Assembly: GCA_025360005.1 (NCBI GenBank)
Contig: JANYDA010000023.1
Coordinates: 1-64,000, forward strand
DNA from: Fibrobacteria bacterium
Lineage (GTDB): Bacteria; Fibrobacterota; Fibrobacteria; UBA11236
Length of the DNA: 64,000 bases
Direction: 5' to 3'
A program made the position numbers and the translations under genes. Below the pieces are notes generated by a model. That model was given only the letters and a program-made list of their open reading frames with translations, searched no databases and was not told the DNA's origin. This document shows, piece after piece, positions 21,561 to 30,283 of the stretch; position 1 is the first letter of the stretch; every line of letters starts with the position of its first letter.

Positions 21561-22526
21561 ATGCCTAAGGTCTTGCAAATCGAGGTCCTCACCGGCGTTT
21601 TCCGGCTACTCTCGGACGAAACGCGTCTCCGCATCCTCTGCGTCCTCCGCGAATCCGAACTCGCCGTGGGCGAGCTCCAGAAAATCCTGGGCTTGGGGCA
21701 AAGCACCTTGTCCACCCAGCTGGGTCTGCTCAAGGAGCAGGACCTGGTGGCCGGCCGCAAGGAAGGCCAGAAGGTGCTGTACCGAGTCCCGCGCAACGGG
21801 AAAGAAGATCCTAAACTGGATATCATCGAGAACGCTTTGCAAAGCGCGCCGGCCGCCAAGTGGTATGAGCGGGACAAGCGCAACCTCAATAAGGTATTGC
21901 AGGAACGCAGCGATCGTTCGCGGGAGTTTTTCAATACCCAGGCGGTACAGAACATGCCGTCGCCGGGACAGACCTGGCTGGCGTTGAGCAATGGCCTGAT
22001 CCGCTTGATCCGCAACCAGCGCATCGCGGATCTGGGCTGCGGCAATGGCCGCCTGGCCGTCCTGCTGGCCTTATCCGGAAACGCCGTCACCGGTATTGAC
22101 AGCAGTGAAGAGCAAATCCGGCTGGCACGCGGGAATGCGGATAAGGGCGCGGCGGACGGAGAAGCCGGCAACGGGAATCCCGTTTTCAAGCACGCCCCCA
22201 TGGAAGATACCGGCCTTCCGGCCGCCGGCTTCGACGTGGTCATCATGTCGCAGTCCCTGCACCATGCCGCCAAGCCCAAGGAAGCCATCGCGGAATCGCA
22301 CCGCCTGTTGGCGCCCGGCGGGCGCATCCTGATCCTGGATCTGCTCGCGCATGGCGAAGAGTGGATGCGGACCAAGTTCGGCGACTTCTGGCTTGGCTTC
22401 ACCCGTACCGATCTGGAAACCTGGCTGAAAGAAGGCGGCTTCAGCGCCGTCCATTTCGAGATCACCGGACCGTCGCAGGATTACCCGGAGATTGAAGGAC
22501 TGCTGGTGCAGGCGGAGAAACAGTGA
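21561..22526 (+). CDS. ArsR-family winged-helix regulator fused to a SAM-dependent methyltransferase domain
   Basis: 321 residues. About 1-90 is an ArsR winged helix (LLSDETRLRILCVLRESELAVGELQKILGLGQSTLSTQLGLLKEQDLVAGRKEGQKVLYRV) without the metal-binding CxC motif. About 145-300 is a class I methyltransferase: IADLGCGNGRLAVLLALSG, VTGIDSSEEQI, FDVVIMSQSLHHAAKPKEAIAESHRLLAPGG. Such ArsR-methyltransferase fusions often sit beside methionine-cycle genes, and SAM/SAH sensing has been shown for the ArsR regulator SahR in other bacteria. Next to metH, a SAM- or SAH-responsive regulator is the best reading, by inference. A palindrome sits just upstream. Confidence 0.87.
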   Translation: MPKVLQIEVLTGVFRLLSDETRLRILCVLRESELAVGELQKILGLGQSTLSTQLGLLKEQDLVAGRKEGQKVLYRVPRNGKEDPKLDIIENALQSAPAAKWYERDKRNLNKVLQERSDRSREFFNTQAVQNMPSPGQTWLALSNGLIRLIRNQRIADLGCGNGRLAVLLALSGNAVTGIDSSEEQIRLARGNADKGAADGEAGNGNPVFKHAPMEDTGLPAAGFDVVIMSQSLHHAAKPKEAIAESHRLLAPGGRILILDLLAHGEEWMRTKFGDFWLGFTRTDLETWLKEGGFSAVHFEITGPSQDYPEIEGLLVQAEKQ

Positions 22527-22720: not shown

Positions 22721-26443
<3,723 letters not shown>

Positions 26444-26569
26444 TCCAATCCTGAACGGAAGCAATCTTCCCGATCATGTGGGGCGACTTTTTTACGGATC
26501 AGGATTCCGATTTGGCGGAATCGAATCCAGATTTGCTACATTCATCCCGTCTTTTAGACACCACAACCA

Positions 26570-26586
26570 GGGTAGCGCGCCTACCC
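26570..26586 (+). other. Leader hairpin upstream of the bufferin-like genes
   Basis: GGGTAG and CTACCC pair perfectly around CGCGC, followed by GGATATTTTT, 25 nt before the ATG at 26612. It could be a weak terminator of metH or an attenuator in the 5' leader of the two small genes. The ribosome-binding site AGGAAGGA lies just downstream. Confidence 0.4.
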
Positions 26587-26611
26587 GGATATTTTTAGGA
26601 AGGACTAGAAA

Positions 26612-26881
26612 ATGACGAAGTACACTTTTTCAAAAATTGCTCTGTCGATGGCGGTAGTTGGTCTCATGGGCATCTCCCAGGTCGTAGCCGCTGACGCAGC
26701 CCCCGCCGCCGCCAAGACCGAAGCTACCGCTGCTCCGGCCGCCGCTCCCGCTACCGACGTCGCCCCCTTGGACACCAATGCCAAGGCTCCCAAGAAGAAG
26801 TCCCACAAGAAGAAGAAGGCCGCCGCCGCTGCTGCCGCTCCGGCCACCGAAGCCGCTCCCGCCGCCGGTGCCGCTAAATGA
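26612..26881 (+). CDS. Small exported Ala/Pro/Lys-rich protein without Cys, coupled to the bufferin-like precursor
   Basis: 89 residues: signal peptide (ends VVAADA), then Ala/Pro/Thr-rich sequence with a Lys cluster (APKKKSHKKKKAAAAA). No Cys. The stop codon overlaps the next ATG (ATGA at 26878-26881), so translation is coupled. Composition and leader resemble the next gene minus its Cys repeats, so it may be a degenerate paralogue or a partner protein. AGGAAGGA provides a good ribosome-binding site. Function unknown. Confidence 0.72.
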   Translation: MTKYTFSKIALSMAVVGLMGISQVVAADAAPAAAKTEATAAPAAAPATDVAPLDTNAKAPKKKSHKKKKAAAAAAAPATEAAPAAGAAK

Positions 26882-27339
26882 ATAAGTCCAACCTGTTCGC
26901 AAACCTGGCCATTGCCGGCATCGCTGCAGGCATGATCTCGGTTGCTTCGGTTTCCGCGGAAGACGTGGCTGCTCCTGCCGCCACAGCTCCGATGGACACC
27001 TCCAAGCATGCCAAGAAGGCCAAGCACGCCAAGGTCCATAAGGACGCTCCGGCTGCTGCCGCCGCTCCCGTGGCCGCCCCCGCTGCTGAAGCCGCTCCTG
27101 CGGCGCCTGCCGCCGCCGCTACCCCCGCTACCCCCGCTGCCGCTCCTGCCGCCGCCGCCGCTGAAAAGCACGCGTGCAAAGGCACGAATAGCTGCAAAGG
27201 CAAGGGCGGATGCAAGATGGATCAGGCCGGCATCGACGCCGCTGCCAAGAAAATGGGCGTGGCCGCTGACAAGGCCGGCAAAGCCCACGGCTGCAAAGGT
27301 CTAAACGAATGTAAGGGTCTGGGCGGCTGCAAAGCCTAA
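26878..27339 (+). CDS. Bufferin-like Cys-repeat exported peptide, probable MNIO-modified RiPP precursor
   Basis: 153 residues. Signal peptide ends near VSAED; a long Ala/Pro/Lys/His-rich spacer follows. Two repeats follow, CKGTNSCKGKGGCK and CKGLNECKGLGGCK, with Cys at 100, 106, 112 and 139, 145, 151 (spacing C-x5-C-x5-C both times). Cys-rich exported peptides with CxGxNxCKGxGGC patterns are associated with DUF692/MNIO enzymes, which convert Cys to metal-binding thiooxazole-type groups in bufferins. A DUF692 gene lies 138 nt away on the opposite strand. Likely role: periplasmic copper or other metal binding, by inference. The BufA2-type label is from memory. A strong terminator follows. Confidence 0.75.
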   Translation: MNKSNLFANLAIAGIAAGMISVASVSAEDVAAPAATAPMDTSKHAKKAKHAKVHKDAPAAAAAPVAAPAAEAAPAAPAAAATPATPAAAPAAAAAEKHACKGTNSCKGKGGCKMDQAGIDAAAKKMGVAADKAGKAHGCKGLNECKGLGGCKA

Positions 27340-27379
27340 TCCCATCCGAACATCCGGTCCCCTGACCGAGCGCTTGGAA

Positions 27380-27413
27380 GAACCCGCCCCCAAAAGAGGC
27401 GGGTTCTTTTTTT
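27380..27413 (+). terminator. Intrinsic terminator after the bufferin-like precursor
   Basis: GAACCCGCC (27380-27388) and GGCGGGTTC (27398-27406) form a perfect 9-bp stem with a 9-nt loop, followed by seven T. It ends the plus-strand transcript and separates it from the convergent DUF692 gene. Confidence 0.9.
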
Positions 27414-27477
27414 ATTGCCTATAGAACATAGAACAGGGAAAAACATGGCACGGGCCGGCAGCCCCGGAGCAAAGCTC

Positions 27478-28344
27478 CTAAACGCCTGACAAGGCGCTTG
27501 CCCCAATGCCAGACGCCCCTGCGCCTGTCCCTGAGACCCACTTCTTAGCCTTCAAAACCTCCGCATGCGTCTCAGGAAAAGCAGGTATCGCGTCGTCCCA
27601 TTCGACCATGGTAGCGGCCCCACCGCAACCGGCGTAGGCGGCCTTGAAAATCTCCCATACTTCGTCCCGGACGGGATGGTCGTGCGTGTCGAGAACATAG
27701 CTTCCCCGATCGCTATGGCCCGCCAGATGGATTTGGCAAACGCGCGACAAGTCCAGGCCGCCCAGGTATTCCATCGCATCGAAATGGTGGTTGCGGGAGG
27801 ACACATAGATATTGTTCACGTCCAGCATCATGCGGCAATCCGCTTTCTCGACCACGGCGCGGTAGAACTCCCATTCAGGCATGGTCCCGGCGGAGAACTC
27901 GGCCACCGCGGAAAGGTTTTCGATGCCGAATGGAAGCTCAAGGAAGTCCTGGGCGATGCGGGCCTTTTCCGCCACCCGCCGGACGGCCTCATCCGTGTAA
28001 GGGAGCGGCAGCAGATCATGGTAGTGATGCGCGCCTGCCCGCGTCCAGCACAGGTGATCGGTAAACCAGGGCGCTCCGGTTTTGCGGGCCAGCGTTTTCA
28101 GTTTTTTCAAATACCCGAAATCGAGTTCCCCCGGCGCCCCCAATGAGAGGCACACGCCGTGCATCACCACCGGATACGTCTCCAGGATCCGCTCGAGGTT
28201 ATATAACGGAACGCCTCCCGCGGCCATGAAGTTTTCGGAAATGATCTCGAAGAAATCGACCTGGGGACGATGCTCGAAAATGTAAGCGTAATGCGGAATG
28301 CGCAATCCCAATCCGAAACCCAGGTGGGGCAGTTTTAGCGGCAT
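27478..28344 (-). CDS. DUF692 multinuclear non-heme iron oxidase (MNIO/BufB-like)
   Basis: 288 residues, TIM-barrel. Family signatures: GFGLGLRIPHYAYI, VDFFEIISENF, VVMHGVCLSLG, WFTDHLCWT, PFGIENLSAV, MMLDVNNIYVSSRNH, QIHLAGHSD, DTHDHPVRDEVWEIF and TMVEWDDAIP. The His, Asp, Glu and Asn residues in these blocks are the metal ligands of the family. MNIO enzymes modify Cys residues in RiPP precursors. The convergent gene encodes a Cys-repeat exported peptide, the obvious substrate. The usual DUF2063-type partner is missing nearby, and the gene is alone on its strand, so the arrangement differs from classic bufferin operons. Confidence 0.92.
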   Translation of the reverse strand: MPLKLPHLGFGLGLRIPHYAYIFEHRPQVDFFEIISENFMAAGGVPLYNLERILETYPVVMHGVCLSLGAPGELDFGYLKKLKTLARKTGAPWFTDHLCWTRAGAHHYHDLLPLPYTDEAVRRVAEKARIAQDFLELPFGIENLSAVAEFSAGTMPEWEFYRAVVEKADCRMMLDVNNIYVSSRNHHFDAMEYLGGLDLSRVCQIHLAGHSDRGSYVLDTHDHPVRDEVWEIFKAAYAGCGGAATMVEWDDAIPAFPETHAEVLKAKKWVSGTGAGASGIGASALSGV

Positions 28345-28452: not shown

Positions 28453-28953
28453 TTAGAACAGAATGCGGAAGTTAAGCCCGTCCACGATGCTGATCCCGTT
28501 TCCGATGGTGTCGAATTCAAAATCGGGAACCAAGGCCATTCCCACGCCGAATAGGATGGAGACGGCGAGATGGGGCAGCAGGATGACTTCCGGCTGGTAG
28601 CCGGCCTTGATTTTCAGGGAGCCGCGGGTAACGTTGCCGGAATACTGATCGGCCCGGAGCCCCGTGTTGTCATCGCGGAAATAAGCACCGACATGCAGAT
28701 AGCCCGTCATCTTTTCCCAGGAATGCAATGCGAGCAGATAGCGCCCGGAAGCGGTGATGTTGAATTTGGAATCCCCGGTGCCGTTGTTGTTGTAGTAAAG
28801 GCTGGTTCCGGCTTCGATGTGGTTGAAGCCGCCCAGCCCGATGCGGGCGACCACTTCCTTATTGTCGCCGTCCCAACCCATCCCTTCGAATTGCGCATTG
28901 GCGGTGGCGAAGGAAGCGAAGAGCAACGAAGCGAACAGAGGGAATTTTTTCAT
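28453..28953 (-). CDS. Small outer-membrane beta-barrel-like protein
   Basis: 166 residues. Signal peptide MKKFPLFASLLFASFATANA|QFEG. The mature part alternates polar and hydrophobic residues with aromatic ends and finishes with Phe (LNFRILF), as in outer-membrane barrels; 140-odd residues would make an 8-strand barrel. No specific family recognised. AGGAG lies eight bases before the ATG. A near-consensus promoter and a structured leader of about 100 nt lie upstream, so it is probably well expressed and possibly regulated. Confidence 0.72.
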   Translation of the reverse strand: MKKFPLFASLLFASFATANAQFEGMGWDGDNKEVVARIGLGGFNHIEAGTSLYYNNNGTGDSKFNITASGRYLLALHSWEKMTGYLHVGAYFRDDNTGLRADQYSGNVTRGSLKIKAGYQPEVILLPHLAVSILFGVGMALVPDFEFDTIGNGISIVDGLNFRILF

Positions 28954-29203: not shown

Positions 29204-30283
29204 TCAGGGAAAACCTTCCAGGCCCCCCAGGCCGCGGATTTCCACATCGTCGTATCCGGCAGCGGTCAAAGGCGCGATGATATCCTCGCCCGGTACGGGA
29301 AGGTAACTCATCAGCAATTCCGCATCGGCAGCGGTTTCCCGCAACCGCGGGTTCACGCAAGCGGCCGGCACCAATACCGTTTCGCCCAGCCCGATGGCCA
29401 TGGATTGGCCGCTCTCCCAACCGATCTCGAACGCCCCTTGGACGCAAGTGACGACCCGGAAGCGCCCCCGATTGGCCAGCGGAACGGCGCCGCGGCAACT
29501 GGAAAGCTTGACCACCGCGAAGTGGCGGCAGGCCACCCTGAATTCCTCGACATGGTTGGCGCGCTTGATGGCGAGCGGAGGAATGCGGTGCTTGCCATGG
29601 CGGCGCAGATCGATGACTTGGTCCGATTCGCTCAAGTGCAATTGCCGGGACTTTCCCGCGGCGTCCACCCGATCCCAATCATAGAGGCGGAAGGTAGTGT
29701 CTGAATTCTGTTGCACCTCGTACAGAAGCAAACCCGCGGTGATGGCATGTACGGTACCGGCGGGGATGAAAAACATGTCGCCCGCTTTGGCGGGCACACG
29801 GTTCAGAACGCTTTGGCAGGCCTTGGTGCGCAGGGCCGCCAACACCTGTTCGCGGCTTCCTTCCCCGGAAATCCCCAGGATCAATTCCGCATCCTTGGGC
29901 GCGTCCAGGATATACCAGCATTCGGTCTTGGACTCGCCCAGCTGCGATCCTTCCCCCGGGTGTACCTGCACGGAAAGGTTTTCCCGGGCGAAGATGAATT
30001 TGAACAGGAGCGGGAAGCGGGCCAGGGTGGGGGAATATTGGCTGCCCAGGATGTCCCGCGCATGGATGGAAAAGATCTCGCGCAAATTGGCGCCCGCGAA
30101 GGAGCCTCCCACGGTGACGCTGGCATTATCGTCCCGATCGGAAAGCTCCCAGGATTCGCCTACGTCCTTGTCCAACGCATTGCCTTTGCCCAGCACGCGA
30201 TGGAGACCGTCCCCGCCCCAGATGCGGGATTGCAGGATGGCTTTGAACTTCAGGGGTTCGCGCATGACAGCGGGCTGTACCAT
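29204..30283 (-). CDS. manA: Mannose-6-phosphate isomerase, class I type
   Basis: 359 residues. Cupin-type phosphomannose isomerase: IWGGDGLHRVLGKG near the start, ESWELSDR, LLFKFIFARENLSVQVHPGEG with Gln/His zinc ligands, KTECWYIL with the Glu ligand, and IPAGTVHAITAGLLLYEVQQNSDTTFRLYDWDR. It interconverts fructose-6-phosphate and mannose-6-phosphate, linking glycolysis to GDP-mannose and mannan use; a mannanase gene lies about 11 kb downstream. A second start at Met7 is possible. Not obviously cotranscribed with the STAS gene, from which it is separated by 83 nt. Confidence 0.93.
   Translation of the reverse strand: MVQPAVMREPLKFKAILQSRIWGGDGLHRVLGKGNALDKDVGESWELSDRDDNASVTVGGSFAGANLREIFSIHARDILGSQYSPTLARFPLLFKFIFARENLSVQVHPGEGSQLGESKTECWYILDAPKDAELILGISGEGSREQVLAALRTKACQSVLNRVPAKAGDMFFIPAGTVHAITAGLLLYEVQQNSDTTFRLYDWDRVDAAGKSRQLHLSESDQVIDLRRHGKHRIPPLAIKRANHVEEFRVACRHFAVVKLSSCRGAVPLANRGRFRVVTCVQGAFEIGWESGQSMAIGLGETVLVPAACVNPRLRETAADAELLMSYLPVPGEDIIAPLTAAGYDDVEIRGLGGLEGFP

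Follow-up and report, generated by a model that had tools for sequence, protein, structure and literature searches.

A probable dispersed BufA2-like captophorin pathway in Fibrobacterota, with one MNIO–PME1 pair proposed to act on two unlinked precursors

The window analysed here, a stretch of 64,000 nucleotides (G000:C45:1-64000) of a 4.98-Mb Fibrobacterota genome in 65 contigs with 98% completeness (G000), very probably carries part of a dispersed BufA2-like captophorin (bufferin) pathway, in which one MNIO–PME1 pair would act on two unlinked precursors of the Cys-Lys kind. The modification probably yields 5-thiooxazoles and would serve to buffer copper in the periplasm. The gene identities, the co-occurrence of the components, their congruent trees, their conservation and the unlinked gene order were all observed. 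While the chemistry belongs to a known type, novelty lies in the Fibrobacterota lineage, the lasting separation of MNIO and PME1, and the set of precursors at two loci for a single enzyme. The known distribution of bufferin-like peptides is herewith extended to Fibrobacterota, which find no mention in the MNIO papers examined.

The first-pass annotation of this DNA had described a Cys-rich peptide gene and an MNIO gene that face each other across a strong terminator, and both open reading frames as well as the terminator were found. The precursor gene pepA (26878..27339, + strand; 153 aa, a BufA2-like captophorin-type precursor) and the MNIO gene (27478..28344, - strand; 288 aa) are convergent, and the intrinsic terminator of the peptide transcript, a hairpin with a T-run of about -21 kcal/mol, lies on the + strand at 27378..27414. 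The locus had been given a start at 26612, which is that of an upstream gene, pep0 (26612..26881, + strand), and not that of the Cys peptide. This gene, overlooked before, encodes a Cys-less exported Ala/Pro/Lys-rich peptide of 89 aa, and pepA is the second gene of the pair, its start codon being overlapped by the stop of pep0. Upstream are found genes for an ArsR-type regulator-methyltransferase (21561-22526) and for metH (22721-26443). On the far side of the MNIO gene, and like it on the other strand than pepA, an exported protein without Pfam match (28453-28953), manA (29204-30283) and a STAS protein are encoded, followed further on by TolQ, TolR, TolB and an OmpA/Pal-type gene. The exported protein is kept across the family, with varying orientation.

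The pepA product is composed of an apparent Sec signal peptide, an Ala/Pro/Lys/His-rich linker and one six-Cys core; the putative signal peptide site (MNKSNLFANLAIAGIAAGMISVASVSA/ED) is conserved and was judged by eye only. Its Cys residues stand exactly where they had been reported, at positions 100/106/112 and 139/145/151, and each of the six is followed by lysine (6/6 Cys-Lys). A search of all six reading frames of the window for C[KAH]GxNxCKGxGGC gave just two matches, and both lie in pepA. Among 15 homologues from the window's Fibrobacterota family the six core Cys are invariant with identical spacing, and the invariance extends to Gly and Asn in the CxGxN units and to the two CKG triplets. 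Comparison between congeners gave pN/pS values of 0.09-0.37 for the core, which is thus under purifying selection, and pepA is therefore a real gene. In the number of its conserved Cys, six, it agrees with the Buf2 (Buf_6/12Cys) precursors, which are defined by 6 or 12 such residues; six are present in 90% of Buf2 precursors and twelve in the rest (PMC12452194). On the NCBI BufA2 model NF050166, pepA scored 17 bits, below the cut-off of 60, and for that reason it is called BufA2-like and is not filed as BufA2. Scores of the other peptides on this model were 22.8 bits for pepB, the second precursor described below, and 27-62 bits for operonic relatives, of which one from Acidobacteriota (L115) passes with 61.9 bits against 60.

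A core-alignment scan of 84,980 species genomes recovered 43 loci, 11 from the window's Fibrobacterota family and 32 from elsewhere. The MNIO gene follows immediately downstream on the same strand at 26 of the 32 loci outside the phylum, and the next gene encodes DUF2063 in 22 of those, the other four stopping at a contig edge. The six-Cys core is found in such peptide–MNIO–DUF2063 operons of Myxococcota, Acidobacteriota, Planctomycetota and Verrucomicrobiota, and the peptides outside the phylum carry six or twelve core Cys in units as in pepA. Since this core is common to ordinary operons of other phyla, the 'duplicated core', from which two sites per chain had been suggested, is the usual unit of the family: its CX5CX5C triplets together form one ordinary six-Cys unit, and two special metal sites arising through duplication are ruled out. 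Tandem repetition of whole six-Cys units does occur in L104, L109, L111, L112 and L113, which have four CxGxNxC triplets and up to twelve core Cys. At five further loci from Planctomycetota and Myxococcota (L120, L124, L132, L135 and L136), six-Cys peptides were found with no MNIO gene in the flank examined; these are possibly further dispersed pathways, or else reflect contig limits.

The MNIO (DUF692) of the window, the sole MNIO of the genome, scored 331.8 bits on Pfam PF05114 and 313 bits on the NCBIfam BufB equivalog NF050167 (cut-off 310), in agreement with the earlier description of a bufferin-type DUF692/MNIO facing a likely Cys-rich precursor; it gave 242 bits on the HvfB model and 32 bits on MbnB. 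Invariant over 35 aligned rows are H62, H97, E142-N143, D175, N178, H206, H210, D219, H221, E248 and D250, and H62, H97, E142, D175, H206, H210, D219, H221 and D250 are identical in 3BWW; these conserved His, Glu and Asp residues we take to be the iron ligands. In the sequence EWDD, Asp251, the putative determinant of Cys-Lys specificity, directly follows the catalytic-base Asp250, where 3BWW has Phe, and the operonic relatives in other phyla have Asp, Glu or Ala at this position, never Phe. Asp occupies it in Cys-Lys (BufB2) enzymes and Phe in Lys-Cys enzymes (PMC13097082). The presence of Asp251 together with a pepA that is entirely of the Cys-Lys kind means that enzyme type and peptide type agree. 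Distant domains of the MNIO superfamily, with about 30% identity and 117-136 bits on PF05114, were also seen inside frames of ~500 aa in two congeners (L011, G003:C22:134114-134650; L012, G005:C268:25841-26380).

It had been stated that no DUF2063 gene is near, which is correct for the locus itself; the genome-wide search, however, detected one on contig C17, and the absence of a DUF2063 partner is thereby ruled out. This protein, PME1 (G000:C17:142420-143292), is the only DUF2063 protein of the genome; it has DUF2063 and NGO1945_C (RRE) domains and exceeds the cut-offs of PF09836 (45.5 bits) and PF22106 (33.2 bits), while it lies under that of the HvfC equivalog (44.5 vs 142). As a full PME1 is present in the genome, though unlinked, the pathway is complete. 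The genes for MNIO and PME1 are almost always adjacent (PMC13097082). In every one of the six window-genus genomes, as in the sister-genus genome G006, no contig carries both the window-type MNIO and its PME1; judged from the contig ends, the distance between them is at least about 35 kb (G000), 80 kb (G003) or 170 kb (G006). The clustering of precursor, MNIO and PME1 that is absent here is typical of bufferin pathways but not mechanistically required. No DUF2282 (BufA1) precursor is present in the genome, and its DoxX complement comprises two distant matches above the cut-off and one below, none of them at the pathway loci; DoxX is widespread in control genomes. A shared upstream motif of the peptides, MNIO and PME1 was not found by eye, and a pattern with the wrong spacer length occurred at about the frequency of the reversed control.

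Elsewhere in the genome lies a precursor as good as pepA, namely its paralogue pepB (G000:C8, from 10811), which has a counterpart in every congener. Given this second precursor, pepA is probably one of two substrates; many bufferin precursors are unlinked to the MNIO gene, and tandem precursors occur (PMC12452194). It could be argued that only pepB or another peptide is the substrate and that pepA, exported without modification as a thiol protein or a binder of metal, came to lie beside MNIO by an accident of the metH neighbourhood. The almost equal paralogue would fit such an explanation, as would the position of pepA behind metH in both genera, with MNIO not beside it in G006. We nevertheless regard it as quite improbable, given that pepA and pepB have one conserved core with the same invariant residues, that no selective signature sets the two apart, that pepA never occurs in the phylum without MNIO and PME1, and that an identical core is operonic with MNIO–PME1 in other phyla.

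The distribution within the phylum accords with a joint pathway of MNIO, PME1 and peptide. Among 168 Fibrobacterota genomes, MNIO was found in nine and DUF2063 in the same nine, a 9/9 match that does not represent nine independent events because the genomes concerned are phylogenetically clustered. The peptide core is present in eight of these nine and in none of the others; in G010, the ninth genome, the MNIO–DUF2063 pair has beside it a gene for a divergent, Cys-rich peptide that resembles a lipoprotein. Two of the four sister-genus genomes (G007 and G008) are without MNIO, PME1 and peptide. The trees of MNIO and PME1 have the same deep split between dispersed pairs (window genus and G006) and operonic pairs (G009, G010, a second copy in G005, and L104, L107, L109 and L129), and the distances in the two trees are correlated with r = 0.90 over 28 pairs. 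G005 has both kinds, dispersed and operonic, each MNIO with its own type of PME1. The correlation supports the pairing of MNIO with PME1 and is no proof of it, since species history contributes.

The convergent arrangement, which had been called unusual, is real but confined to one genus, where it reflects the neighbours of the two genes. The peptide follows metH in both the window genus and the sister genus, and the neighbours of MNIO, both in the window genus and in G006, are manA and Tol-Pal; the two neighbourhoods touch in the window genus, so that peptide and MNIO become convergent. Because G006 keeps the peptide at metH and MNIO at manA/Tol-Pal, on different contigs (C14 and C6), the layout is best regarded as an accident of neighbourhood. 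A function of the layout itself, for example in antisense or read-through control between peptide and MNIO, might be suspected from its retention in no fewer than four other genomes of the genus (G002, G003, G004 and G005). Terminator equivalents were, however, found in four congeners, so that at 5/5 convergent loci the transcript of the peptide is closed by a strong terminator on the + strand; moreover, the gap between peptide and MNIO varies from 139 to 1180 bp, and in G006 the genes are apart altogether. Functional convergence is unsupported in view of the variable gap and of G006, and we consider it extremely improbable.

By analogy with characterised MNIO–PME1 pairs (PMC13097082, PMC13419390), which supply the expectation of a heterodimer, of a 5-thiooxazole product, of export and of a copper function, MNIO would bind the PME1 encoded on C17, which would bring the precursor in and whose binding would let the iron cluster of MNIO reach its active mixed-valent state. 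Before export, the pair would oxidise the Cys of the Cys-Lys dipeptides in pepA and pepB, each modified Cys becoming a 5-thiooxazole with the loss of 4 H, and the modified peptides, after export by way of Sec, would serve as periplasmic buffers of copper or a comparable soft metal. The copper role itself appears moderately probable; it is rated lower than the pathway assignment because no copper gene or regulation was found and because the chemistry of the Cys-Lys branch has received less study. Near pepA, specifically, no copper gene was detected. The ArsR-type regulator-methyltransferase is a usual neighbour of metH. A product other than a copper-binding 5-thiooxazole, related for instance to zinc, mercury or oxidative stress, seems unlikely, despite the location of pepA behind the gene of the zinc/B12 enzyme metH and that of the ArsR-type protein, which precedes metH in both genera. 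Bufferin relatives fused to MerC do suggest other metals (PMC12452194), and FonBC, the best-studied Lys-Cys enzyme, left an NACKG substrate unprocessed (PMC13097082), a test that consequently does not cover the Cys-Lys branch; on the other hand, the characterised products of MNIO–PME1 pairs carry 5-thiooxazole and generally bind Cu (PMC13097082).

Among known systems, Bufferin 2 (BufA2-BufB2-BufC2) resembles the proposed pathway in its exported six-Cys precursor with CxGxNxCKG units, its BufB-type MNIO, its DUF2063-RRE partner and the Asp at the Cys-Lys specificity position. It differs in that pepA is under the BufA2 equivalog cut-off and contains an extended Ala/Pro/Lys linker as well as, between its triplets, a helical-looking spacer of 26 residues, and in that the genes of the window pathway are spread over four transcription units with no DoxX gene in the cluster. 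The captophorins fontiphorin, oxazolin and gonophorin likewise combine MNIO and PME1 with a Sec-type Cys-rich precursor, but theirs has EGKCG (Lys-Cys) repeats and the enzyme Phe behind the catalytic Asp, in place of Cys-Lys and Asp. Methanobactin (MbnABC) shares the MNIO superfamily, Cys oxidation and copper, whereas its peptide is without a Sec signal, its partner is MbnC, its product is an oxazolone-thioamide and its role copper uptake; the score of the window MNIO on MbnB is correspondingly low. The operonic relatives L104, L107, L109 and L129, from Myxococcota and other groups, have the same peptide core and type of spacer (KLAKxAGVPxDKAGxAHxC) and sister clades of MNIO and PME1, yet their peptide, MNIO and PME1 genes form one operon. 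In L129 (4370-6196, + strand; RFKJ01000260.1, a Deltaproteobacteria MAG), directly behind the six-Cys peptide, a complete MNIO is fused to a complete DUF2063 in one frame, a natural counterpart of the artificial HvfBC fusion.

A lineage in which MNIO and PME1 are unlinked but have matching trees lends itself as a natural experiment on the formation of the active heterodimer and on the use of one enzyme for several precursors, and it also makes clear that neighbourhood mining at five genes either side overlooks complete pathways. Tentatively, and with rather less confidence than for the copper role, it may be proposed that MNIO and its obligate PME1 have been apart ever since the genus arose, and are so in one genome of the sister genus too, working in trans on two dispersed precursors as a distributed, separately regulated regulon, with the heterodimer assembled without co-translation from one mRNA and pep0 as an additional, undescribed component.

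The 5' region of the pep0–pepA pair (26537..26611, + strand) contains a TACATT -10-like box (26537-26542), a short hairpin (26570-26586, GGGTAGCGCGCCTACCC) and a putative ribosome-binding site (AGGAAGGA). Box and ribosome-binding site are conserved in congeners, and the pairing of the hairpin is maintained despite changes in G005 and G003; this strongly conserved region is possibly a regulatory leader. A promoter scan gave one match, no more than expected by chance. The Cys-less Ala/Pro/Lys-rich frame is found directly 5' of pepA in 6/6 window-genus genomes, the G004 copy being cut by the contig end, and across the genus its stop overlaps or adjoins the pepA start codon; the sister genus has no pep0-type frame between metH and the peptide. 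The pep0 peptide resembles the linker half of pepA minus the Cys core.
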